NCBI RefSeq assembly: GCF_000379625.1
Contig: NZ_KB903247.1
Location: 124,001-188,000 of the forward strand
Length of the DNA stretch: 64,000 bases
DNA from: Actinomycetospora chiangmaiensis DSM 45062
GTDB lineage: Bacteria > Actinomycetota > Actinomycetes > Mycobacteriales > Pseudonocardiaceae
Direction: 5' to 3'
Shown here in pieces: positions 46,408 through 60,755 of this stretch. The first letter of the stretch is position 1, and each line of letters begins with the position of its first letter. The notes below the pieces were generated by a model. That model worked only from the letters and a program-made list of their open reading frames with translations, was not told the origin of the DNA and ran no database searches. A program made the position numbers and the translations under genes.

Positions 46408-46530
46408 GGTCACGAGTACCAGCGTCAAGCCCCGGCTCGCTGGTCGGCAACCCTCCTCCGCGGCGGGGTGCTCCGGGTGATGACCCGGCCGGCGCGACAC
46501 CCGCGATCCGGCAAGCGCGGACCCGCACCG
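46408..46530 (+). promoter_or_regulatory. SAM-IV riboswitch
   Basis: The stretch matches the actinobacterial SAM-IV aptamer as I know it: ggtcacgag, then gtcaagccccggctcgctgg, cggcaaccctcc, cgcggcggggtgc and ccgggtgatgacc in the right order and spacing. Such elements sense S-adenosylmethionine and usually repress methionine/cysteine genes. It precedes the class V aminotransferase at 46561. The 3' limit (expression platform, through the tcgggtccccgacgg hairpin) is approximate. Confidence 0.85.
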
Positions 46531-47896: not shown

Positions 47897-47926
47897 TTGA
47901 CACCCGACCGGGCGACGGTTGACGCT
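47897..47926 (+). promoter_or_regulatory. Promoter of a leaderless leader ORF
   Basis: TTGACA (47897-47902) with TGACGC/GACGCT about 17-18 nt downstream, ending 6-7 nt before the GTG at 47933. Confidence 0.55.
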
Positions 47927-47932
47927 CGAACC

Positions 47933-48127
47933 GTGCCTCGTCCCGTCCTGACGCGCCGCCGTCACGTGGATCTCCTCCGCGTGACGGCGCAGGGCTGTCG
48001 CCGGGTCCCCGACCCCGCCACCCCCGCCGTCAGGAAGGCACGTCCATGCGTTTCGGAGTCCTCGACATCGTCCCGCACCTCCCGCACCCGGTCACCGGCG
48101 AGATCCTCTCGGCGCACGAGCGCCTGA
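47933..48127 (+). CDS. Leader peptide of the RRxHVDL family, extended and overlapping the next gene
   Basis: It begins VPRPVLTRRRHVDLLRVTAQ and then GCRR: an intact family core, but no stop follows CR. The frame continues to 48127 (64 residues), overlapping the LLM gene (start 48046) by 82 bp in another frame. Ribosomes translating the leader would terminate inside the LLM gene, so coupling or interference is possible. Confidence 0.7.
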   Translation: MPRPVLTRRRHVDLLRVTAQGCRRVPDPATPAVRKARPCVSESSTSSRTSRTRSPARSSRRTSA

Positions 48128-49161
48128 ACCGGGTCGTCTCGACCGCGGTGCACGCCGAGGCGCTCGGCTTCGACTCCTACGCGGTGGGGGAGCGGCACGC
48201 GGGCGACTTCCTGTCCTCGTCGCCGACCGTGCTGCTCGGGGCGCTCGCGCAGGCCACCGACCGGATCCTGCTCTCGACCGGGGTCACGGTCCTCTCCCTG
48301 CTCGACCCGGTCCGTGTGGCGGAGGACTACGCGACGGTCGACCAGCTCTCCGGGGGCCGTCTCGAGATCGTCGTCGGGAAGGGCAACGAGGACCGGCACT
48401 TCGGCATGTTCGGCCTCGAGATCGGCAAGCAGTACGAGTACCTCCGGGAGAACTACGAGCTGCTCCGGCGACTGCTCCGCGAGGAGCACGTGGACTGGAC
48501 GGGCGTCCACCACGCCGACCTCCACGACATCACCACGCACCCGCGCCCCTTCGACGGCCCCTTCCGCATCTGGCACGGGTCGGCGACCTCGACCGACGCC
48601 GTCGACCTGGCCGCCCGCTGGGGCGACCCGCTCATGACGGCGAACGCCCTGCAGCCCCGCGAGGCCTACCTGGTCCTCATCGACCGGTACCGCGAGAAGC
48701 TCGTCGAGCACGGCCACGACCCCGCCGTCGGCTATGTCGGCTCCGGCTCGGGCGGGCTCTACCTCGCGGCGACCGACGAGCAGGCGGTGCGGCAGTACCG
48801 GCCGATCTACGAGGCGATGGCGGCGAAGCTCGCTGCGGCGCACGCCGACGACCCGCGCAAGGGCAAGACGATGTCGTTCACGACGATCGAGGACGCCGTC
48901 GCCCACGGCCCCGCGCTCGTCGGGACCCCGGAGCGGGTGGCCGAGAAGATCCTCGACTACCACAAGGCCTACCGCCACGACCTGCAGTCGGTGTCGATCA
49001 ACCCGGTGCTGCCCCACGGCGAGCAGCAGGAGGTCCTCGCCCGGTTCGCGGAGGAGGTCATCCCGCTGGTGCGCCGTGAGGTGTCGACGACGCTGTGGGG
49101 CACCGACGACGCCGGGCGCGCAGGTGCGCTGCGCGCAGGTGAGCAGAAAGTGGGGTTATAG
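48046..49161 (+). CDS. LLM class flavin-dependent oxidoreductase
   Basis: A 371-residue luciferase-like monooxygenase. It has FGVLDIVPHLPHPVTGEI, FDSYAVGERHAGDFLSSSP, GVTVLSLLDPVRVAEDYATVDQ, and LEIVVGKGNEDRHFGMF, with a C-terminal lid around VGTPERVAEKILDYHK. It uses reduced FMN or F420; the substrate is unknown, but the leader peptide upstream puts it under the sulfur response. Its C-terminal GEQKVGL is encoded by a 40-bp palindrome shared with the convergent LLM gene. Confidence 0.87.
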   Translation: MRFGVLDIVPHLPHPVTGEILSAHERLNRVVSTAVHAEALGFDSYAVGERHAGDFLSSSPTVLLGALAQATDRILLSTGVTVLSLLDPVRVAEDYATVDQLSGGRLEIVVGKGNEDRHFGMFGLEIGKQYEYLRENYELLRRLLREEHVDWTGVHHADLHDITTHPRPFDGPFRIWHGSATSTDAVDLAARWGDPLMTANALQPREAYLVLIDRYREKLVEHGHDPAVGYVGSGSGGLYLAATDEQAVRQYRPIYEAMAAKLAAAHADDPRKGKTMSFTTIEDAVAHGPALVGTPERVAEKILDYHKAYRHDLQSVSINPVLPHGEQQEVLARFAEEVIPLVRREVSTTLWGTDDAGRAGALRAGEQKVGL

Positions 49162-58631: not shown

Positions 58632-58733
58632 TCAGCCCGGACAGACCGCGCTCGCGACCCGCTGCAGGTCGACGTGGCGGCGGTAGCTCCCGCGGTGCTC
58701 ACAGCGCAGGACGACGTCCCGGTCCGTGCGCAT
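58632..58733 (-). CDS. Cys-containing leader peptide (upstream of the LLM-ABC operon)
   Basis: A 33-residue ORF whose C-terminal core is GSYRRHVDLQRVASAVCPG, then stop. It has an additional Cys near residue 11 in a longer N-terminal part. The promoter is not clear. It lies just before the LLM-B gene. Confidence 0.76.
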   Translation of the reverse strand: MRTDRDVVLRCEHRGSYRRHVDLQRVASAVCPG

Positions 58734-58963
58734 GGGTCCTCCATCGGTCCTGGCATGAGCACCCTCGCCCGCGGGATGCGGGGGGTTGCTGCGGCGTCAG
58801 GGAGCCAGGTCTCTCGGCCGCTCGGGATGGCTACGAAGGACTCTATGGAGTCGGACCCGTGATCTGTCAACCGTCCTCGGCCCACAGCGGAGCAGGTCAC
58901 TCACGCTCGGTGAGGACCCGGTGCTCTGGTGATCGAGGGACCGCCCGTGTCAGAGTGGTCGTC
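58734..58963. other. Divergent promoter region between two leader ORFs
   Basis: A 230-bp gap between leaders pointing left and right. No operator palindrome, terminator or gene seen. Confidence 0.5.
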
Positions 58964-59047
58964 GTGACGGGACCCGGATCGCGACTCGTGCGCCGCACGT
59001 ACGTCGATCTGCTGCGCGTCGTCTCCGCGGGGTGTCGGGCGAGCTGA
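58964..59047 (+). CDS. Cys-containing leader peptide (upstream of a small hypothetical gene)
   Basis: A 27-residue ORF with core RLVRRTYVDLLRVVSAGCRA then Ser and TGA. Tyr replaces the core His. A CAGAGT hexamer ends 7 nt before the GTG. It lies 55 bp upstream of the small ORF at 59103. Confidence 0.76.
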   Translation: MTGPGSRLVRRTYVDLLRVVSAGCRAS

Positions 59048-59102: not shown

Positions 59103-59450
59103 GTGCCCTCGTCCGTGCCTGCCACCTCCACCCCGACCGCCGCGGCGGACCCGGTCGTCGTTGTCACCGCCCCGCGGCGTCGACGGTCGGCCCCGGACCC
59201 GCTGCACCGGGCCGTCGTCGCGGGCGTCCGCCAGCTCGAGGCGGTCGACGCCGAGCCGCCGCAGGAGCGCTACTCGCGGTGCCGCCGCCTCGAGACGACG
59301 CTGCGGACCGCCCTCGAGGAGCAACTGACCCTCGGCCCCTCCGACGCCGTGCCCGCGGTGACGATCGCGTGCGCCTACCTCACGGCGACCGACGTGGAGG
59401 AGGCGTACGCCGCGCTGCTCGTCGCGGCGGACCGCTTGCGCGGACACTGA
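59103..59450 (+). CDS. Small hypothetical protein in the sulfur island
   Basis: A 115-residue soluble protein, GTG start at 59103 with gagg upstream. A disordered N-terminus (to ~30) is followed by three or four helices (LHRAVVAGVRQLEAVDAE, RYSRCRRLETTLRTALEEQL, TATDVEEAYAALLVAADRL). Family not recognised. It sits between two leader ORFs and may be a small adaptor or regulator; compare the small helical protein at 23615-23815. Confidence 0.6.
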   Translation: MPSSVPATSTPTAAADPVVVVTAPRRRRSAPDPLHRAVVAGVRQLEAVDAEPPQERYSRCRRLETTLRTALEEQLTLGPSDAVPAVTIACAYLTATDVEEAYAALLVAADRLRGH

Positions 59451-59502: not shown

Positions 59503-59763
59503 ATGCTCCGCCACGGCACCCTGCGCCGGCACGTCGACCTGGTGCGGACGGCGAGCGCGGTGAGTCCGGGGACGGTCCCGACGCCCGCCCTCGCCCGCCC
59601 GGAAGGTGCACCGTGCCCTCGTCCGTCCCGCTCTCGATCCTCGACCTCGGCCCCGTCCCGGCCGGTGGCAGCGCCGCCGACGCCCTGCGGAACACGATCG
59701 ACCTCGCCCGTGTCGCCGAGGCGGCCGGCTACCGCCGCTACTGGCTCGCCGAGCACCACCTGA
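59503..59763 (+). CDS. Leader peptide of the RRxHVDL family, extended and overlapping the next gene
   Basis: Core [18 protein letters not shown]: the Cys position is Ser, and no stop follows. The frame continues to 59763, overlapping the LLM gene (start 59613) by 151 bp in a different frame. The ATG has a strong purine-rich ribosome binding site (gggaggggg), unlike the leaderless members. Confidence 0.65.
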
Positions 59764-60755
59764 ATCCCGGCGTCGCCTCGTCCTCGACCCCGGTGCTCGC
59801 CGGGTTGGTGGCGAGCGCGACGAGCAGCATCCGCGTCGGGTCGGGCGCGGTGCAGATGCCGCTGACGCCGCCGCTGCAGATCGCCGAGCAGTTCGGCACG
59901 GTCGCCGCGGTCCACCCCGGCCGCGTCGACCTGGGCCTCGGCCGGTTCGACATCCACAAGATCCTGGCTCGCATCCGCGAGCGCTCGGCGGCCGCCGCGG
60001 ACGCCCCGCCCCCGCCGCCGTCCCGCCACGTCGAGGGCCTCCTCATCCCGACGCCGGGGCGGGTCCCCGGGGCGGACCTCTCCACCTTCGCCTCGCTGGC
60101 CGAGCGCTTCGGCATCGACGGCGACGCGCCCGACCACCGTGCGCAGGTCCTCGAGATCCTGTCCTACGTGCGGGGCACAGCGACCCGCGACGACGGCGCG
60201 CCGCTGCACGCCCTGCCGGCCGAGGGCGCCGATCTCGACGTGTGGATCCTGGGCTCCAGCCCCGGGGTGAGCGCGCGGACGGCGGGCGAGCTGGGCCTGC
60301 CCTTCGCGGTGAACTACCACACGCTGCCGACGACCGTCCTCGAGACGGTGGCGGCGTACCGGGAGGCGTTCCGACCCTCGGAGCGGCTGGACCGGCCCCA
60401 TGTCATGGTCTCGGCCGACGTCGTCGTGGCCGATTCCGACGCGGCCGCCCGCGAGCTCGCCGCGCCGTACGGACAGTGGGTGCTCGACATCCGCACCGGG
60501 CGGGGTGCGCACCCCTACGTGACGCCCGCGCAGGCCCGGGCCCGCCGCTGGTCGGAGGCCGAGCGCACCGGGGTGGCCGACCGGGTCGACACCCAGTTCG
60601 TCGGCTCGCCGTGCACGGTCCGCGCGGGCCTGACGACGCTGGTCAACGCCGTGGGCGCCGACGAGCTGCTCATCACGACGATCACCACCGAGCACGCCGA
60701 CCGGGTGCGCAGCTACGAGCTGCTTGCCGACGCGGTCGGGGCGGTGGCCGCCTGA
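59613..60755 (+). CDS. LLM class flavin-dependent oxidoreductase (YhbW-like)
   Basis: A 380-residue luciferase-like protein: [42 protein letters not shown] (the WxAEHH motif near 47), [23 protein letters not shown] and [12 protein letters not shown]. This branch is often annotated as a luciferase-family oxidoreductase group 1 protein. GTG start at 59613. It follows an extended leader ORF that overlaps its start. It converges with a GNAT gene (10 bp between ends). Confidence 0.87.

Follow-up and report, generated by a model that had tools for sequence, protein, structure and literature searches.

Two HVDL-type leader ORFs without a stop after the core run out of frame into luciferase-like monooxygenase genes of Actinomycetospora

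The two loci described here lie in a 64,000-nt stretch (the window, 73.7% GC) of an Actinomycetospora genome of 31 contigs and 5.86 Mb. The window carries an island with several luciferase-like monooxygenase (LLM) genes, a gene for a PLP enzyme with a CBS domain, a class-V aminotransferase gene, peptide/solute ABC transporter genes, an NtaA-like gene and two SAM-type riboswitches. It is a sulfur-scavenging island, and a sulfur role is presumed for the two LLM genes of interest, LLM1 and LLM2. Nine HVDL-type leaders are found in the window, seven of which end in ordinary stops.

Several neighboring elements were recorded along the way. A SAM-IV riboswitch (46408–46523; 100.8 bits) lies upstream of the class-V aminotransferase gene, whose longest ORF begins inside the aptamer; translation therefore probably starts farther downstream. 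On the minus strand, an HVDL leader with an LLM gene downstream begins (ATG at 58733) 5 nt past a SAM riboswitch aptamer (58738–58833), placing two sulfur sensors in tandem within 58632–58833. At 59000 (plus strand), the nucleotides of the leader RTYVDLLRVVSAGC are nearly identical between several species; both RNA and peptide may be under constraint.

The features of the two loci, all on the plus strand, are as follows.

47897–47926, plus strand: putative promoter of the LLM1 leader, read from the sequence (TTGACA, 18-nt spacer, GACGCT)
47933–48127, plus strand: stop-less LLM1 leader ORF of 64 codons, MPRPVLTRRRHVDLLRVTAQGCR followed by run-on sequence
47957–47966 and 47980–47989, plus strand: arms of a perfect 10-bp inverted repeat in the core codons of the LLM1 leader, identical in three species
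47996–47998, plus strand: conserved Cys codon (TGT) of the LLM1 leader
48002–48004, plus strand: CGG in the LLM1 leader, aligned with the TGA stop of orthologues
48032–48038, plus strand: putative Shine–Dalgarno (SD) sequence of LLM1 (AGGAAGG), crossed by the run-on leader
48046–49161, plus strand: LLM1, luciferase-like monooxygenase gene (PF00296)
59103–59450, plus strand: small gene (115 aa) upstream of the LLM2 leader
59503–59763, plus strand: stop-less LLM2 leader ORF of 86 codons, with its own purine-rich SD
59563–59565, plus strand: AGT (Ser) in the LLM2 leader; the TBRC 11914 orthologue has TGT (Cys)
59601–59606, plus strand: putative SD sequence of LLM2 (GGAAGG)
59613–60755, plus strand: LLM2, MsnO8-family LLM oxidoreductase gene (TIGR03558, 330 bits, above cutoff)

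The LLM1 leader starts with GTG and reaches 82 bp into LLM1 (start ATG); the LLM2 leader starts with ATG and reaches 151 bp into LLM2 (start GTG). Both are out of frame with their genes, and the distance from the core His to the LLM start is 83 nt at both loci (remainder 2 when divided by three, here called phase 2). The missing stop after the core and the out-of-frame overlaps, as given in the initial annotation, were thus confirmed from sequence, frames and coordinates. The LLM1 start (MRF.VLDIVPH) is conserved in five Actinomycetospora species, and the nearest TIGR profiles of the protein, TIGR04036 and TIGR03858, both fall below cutoff. The promoter-like sequence of the LLM1 leader aligns with conserved sequence in A. 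soli and A. termitidis; judging by its spacing, transcription would begin at the GTG itself, making the leader leaderless.

Membership of the HVDL family was assessed with NF042934, the NCBIfam cis_reg_atten profile for putative leader peptides of the actinobacterial HVDL type (cutoff 27 bits). The trimmed cores score barely above the cutoff (27.2 bits for LLM1 and 27.1 for LLM2), and the full run-on ORFs score below it (25.5 and 24.0 bits). Both leaders lie just upstream of a gene with a presumed role in sulfur metabolism. Neither stops soon after the core, with 54 and 77 codons from the His to the stop for LLM1 and LLM2, respectively; an early stop is an empirical feature (161/168 sampled leaders) that lies outside NCBI's own definition. 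The Cys-rich leader profiles NF042936 (Ms4527A) and NF042933 (Ms5788A) gave best scores of 20.3 and 18.9 bits, below their cutoff of 45.

The rarity of this arrangement was gauged in two samples. Among 79 distinct leaders from 41 Actinomycetospora stretches (including the window), 73 stop 11–21 codons after the core His. The six exceptions form three groups: LLM1 (one species), LLM2 (four species) and a cysC leader in one genome (G002). A class-wide sample of 89 leaders, gathered by a pattern that did not require a stop, had a single exception (L224); the other 88 stop within 12–27 codons of the His. The spacers downstream of leader stops hold only 0.006–0.009 stops per codon (0.6%–0.9%). A stop that is near-universal despite so few spacer stops must therefore be strongly selected, and the two leaders of the window are genuine exceptions to the rule. 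In total, at least four independent stop losses were seen.

The other two exceptions were noted in passing. The cysC-like gene of G002 has a stop-less leader (L139:3920, minus strand) with a 76-bp overlap, and the orthologous leader L156:10900 has a stop. L224:52, a stop-less leader of the same family, continues in frame into its downstream gene, and its relatives L218 and L222 stop normally. Leader-to-gene spacing across the genus falls into a short class (∼79–95 nt from the His) and a longer, spread-out class (above ∼110 nt); all stop-less leaders of the genus belong to the short class. Phase 2 is seen in all three stop-less genus groups versus four of 23 normal short-spacer leaders (one-sided p ∼0.013, with non-independent rows). 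Phase 2 as a requirement is weak, with L224, in phase 0, as a counter-example.

The history of the two losses differs. LLM1 was found in five of 18 genus genomes. In A. soli (LLM1 95% identical) and A. termitidis (88%), the leader keeps its GTG start and reads ...HVDLLRVTAQGCR-stop, ending 42–45 nt before the LLM start; in the orthologous leaders MPRPVLTRRRHVDLLRVTAQGCR and MLRPELTRRRHVDLLRVTAQGCR, a TGA directly follows ...AQGCR. At this site the orthologues have CGC-TGA-GGT versus CGC-CGG-GTC in the window, one base fewer, and the window spacer is 1 nt shorter than that of A. soli. TBRC 11914 and A. endophytica carry LLM1 without a leader and in a different context. Because the A. soli and A. 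termitidis leaders end in TGA, the stop was lost in the window lineage alone; the loss is private and recent. Orthologues with normal stops, named in advance as evidence against a dedicated mechanism, thus exist for LLM1.

LLM2 is present in five genus genomes. Its leader is found, and is stop-less, in the window, A. soli, G013 and TBRC 11914, that is, in all four leader-bearing species, with LLM2 identity going down to 81%. The distance from His to start is 83, 77, 80 and 80 nt, respectively, keeping one phase throughout, and in all four the leader ORF terminates where the gene encodes AEHHL. The LLM2 gene of A. termitidis overlaps the upstream gene by ATGA and has no leader. Outside the genus, one orthologue with 70% identity (L086) is preceded, at 73 nt, by a leader of this family that stops normally; no leader lies close to the other family members examined. 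On this comparison, the LLM2 stop loss is ancestral, predating the split of at least four species, and because every one of these leaders lacks the stop, a stable stop-less form exists at LLM2. The initial annotation had proposed that leader translation would end inside the target gene and could block or couple LLM initiation, unlike in stop-terminated leaders. That interpretation is partly supported: the stop-less form is conserved at LLM2, and the LLM1 orthologues have stops.

We asked whether the leaders are still under constraint. Between the window and A. soli, the LLM1 core has five synonymous and no nonsynonymous codon differences, and the LLM2 core two and none; across three close species, all differences between LLM2 cores are synonymous except for the exchange of ATG and GTG at the start. 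From a count of possible single changes, the chance of an all-synonymous outcome is ∼0.002 for LLM1 (5/5) and ∼0.009 for LLM2 (4/4). Because the cores change almost only synonymously, the stop-less leaders are probably still functional. The Cys codon is kept in LLM1; at that position of the LLM2 core, TBRC 11914 alone has Cys, and the other three species have Ser. The predicted RNA fold of the LLM1 leader (47933–48070) is more stable than shuffles (z = −4.38), and the LLM2 leader showed no excess structure in the same kind of test (z = +0.69). An RNA switch at LLM1 was considered and set aside: despite the strong fold, pairing of the SD is clear in the window only and partial in relatives. No plausible slip site was seen for a programmed frameshift joining leader and LLM.

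The length of the overlaps carries no signal. Values of 82 and 151 bp are the exact medians of 2000 codon shuffles of each LLM gene that kept the protein; overlap lengths are uninformative because the LLM coding sequence dictates them. A conserved overlap length was also rejected as a sign of function, the internal stop of LLM2 sitting in the conserved AEHHL motif and the shuffles giving equal lengths. The same holds for the TGC Cys codon lying over the RTG start of each of the three stop-less genus groups, as any RTGC start in that phase gives TGC. Entry into the gene is itself automatic after stop loss because spacers of ∼74% GC hold almost no in-frame stops: were the stop lost, 48 of the 58 leaders with a located gene would enter that gene, as would 22 of the 23 with short spacers. 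No special explanation is hence needed for long overlaps between leader and gene in GC-rich genomes.

Taken together, we consider it fairly probable that both ORFs are ordinary HVDL/cysteine-family leaders of the sulfur island, each of which has lost its post-core stop. For LLM1, a recent change of TGA to CGG with a one-base deletion removed the stop in the window lineage only; for LLM2, the likeliest reading is a variation that a known type of leader tolerates, and not a new mechanism. After the loss, the leader frame continues to whichever out-of-frame stop happens to come first in the sequence coding for the LLM protein. Translation of the leader probably persists, and it would sense as its relatives do, with a presumed cysteine response by comparison with mycobacterial leaders. 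Pausing of a ribosome within the core or on the Cys codon would leave the LLM ribosome-binding site free, and a ribosome that does not pause would run over the SD and start and terminate inside the gene. The most that such read-through would do is reduce LLM initiation. Blocking of the LLM start is possible in principle, with repression as the plausible sign by analogy with the uPPE2 uORF of M. tuberculosis, where removal of the native stop (a 63-codon extension) sharply lowered a downstream reporter (PMC11260477).

The excess of phase 2 among the stop-less genus groups counts against this reading, within the limits given above. The persistence of the LLM2 form and its constant frame also weigh on the other side and hint that the stop-less state may be maintained. 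This is the core of a rival explanation, in which the leaders are a selected subclass: plentiful cysteine leads to deliberate read-through that occludes the LLM start, and a pause in the core frees it. Its support comes from the four species whose length changes preserve the frame, from purifying selection on the leader core and from the repressive stop-less uPPE2 (PMC11260477), yet the frame keeping rests on only two or three independent length changes, the LLM1 orthologues have stops, the overlaps are those that LLM coding gives by chance, and the lack of a core Cys codon in three of four LLM2 leaders weakens cysteine control there. We regard it as doubtful, and a selected mechanism is conceivable for LLM2 only. 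We are slightly more doubtful of a narrower version, in which LLM2-type leaders are a maintained HVDL subclass without a stop, in three species also without a core Cys codon, and the nascent core would pause the ribosome and non-paused ribosomes would turn LLM off as they pass across its start.

A further reading, in which the stop-less leaders have ceased to function and are decaying, is improbable. Decay would fit the missing stops at both loci, the Cys codon lost from three LLM2 leaders and the absence of any leader at A. termitidis LLM2 and two LLM1 orthologues, but the almost purely synonymous core changes and the conserved promoter and start of the LLM1 leader speak against it. Far less probable is a sequencing or assembly error at 48002. 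The window comes from one draft genome and the site from a GC-rich, C-rich stretch; however, the T-to-C change at the stop and the length change are among several differences from A. soli, beyond one homopolymer slip, and an error is inapplicable to LLM2, which is stop-less in four genomes. The long cases of termination–reinitiation coupling, the MS2 and fr lysis genes, have overlaps near 38–50 nt. We give next to no credence to such coupling here, in which the leader ribosome would end inside LLM and move back to its start: the ORFs overlap on the same strand, but at 82 and 151 nt the overlaps exceed coupling range by far (work summarized in PMC12548453 had no coupling at 25 nt), making it unlikely, and both LLM genes have their own SD.

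The reading of stop loss in otherwise ordinary leaders has a wider bearing. The strong selection on the HVDL stop means that it is probably part of how these leaders work, and the natural losses (LLM1, LLM2, cysC and L224) are ready-made test cases for its role.

Among known systems, the closest is the NF042934 family itself, which shares the core (R)RHVDLxR and the position of a short ORF upstream of sulfur genes and differs in having a stop after the core. Mycobacterial leaders of this general kind have been described as cysteine-responsive attenuators (Canestrari et al. 2020, via PMC9094748 and PMC13236596; PMC4633059). The polycysteine leaderless small ORFs among mycobacterial leaders resemble ours in a weak profile similarity, in the probable leaderless GTG at LLM1 and in a C-terminal Cys codon ahead of a normal stop; unlike them, the window leaders have one Cys and no tract (none in the LLM2 core) and lack the stop. 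In the available text of Shell et al. (2015; PMC4633059), mycobacterial small ORFs are sorted into uORF, coupled and overlapping classes, the last being leaderless small ORFs that end inside the next gene in another frame. Such an overlap is present at both window loci, but promoter spacing suggests a leaderless start at LLM1 only, the LLM2 leader having an SD, and that text does not present the overlapping ORFs as members of a conserved leader family that lack its stop. The uPPE2–PPE2 pair of M. tuberculosis also has a uORF in a different frame from the gene that follows; the natural uORF differs in ending at an AUGA overlap before a gene without its own SD, and its engineered stop-less form resembles the layout of the window (PMC11260477).
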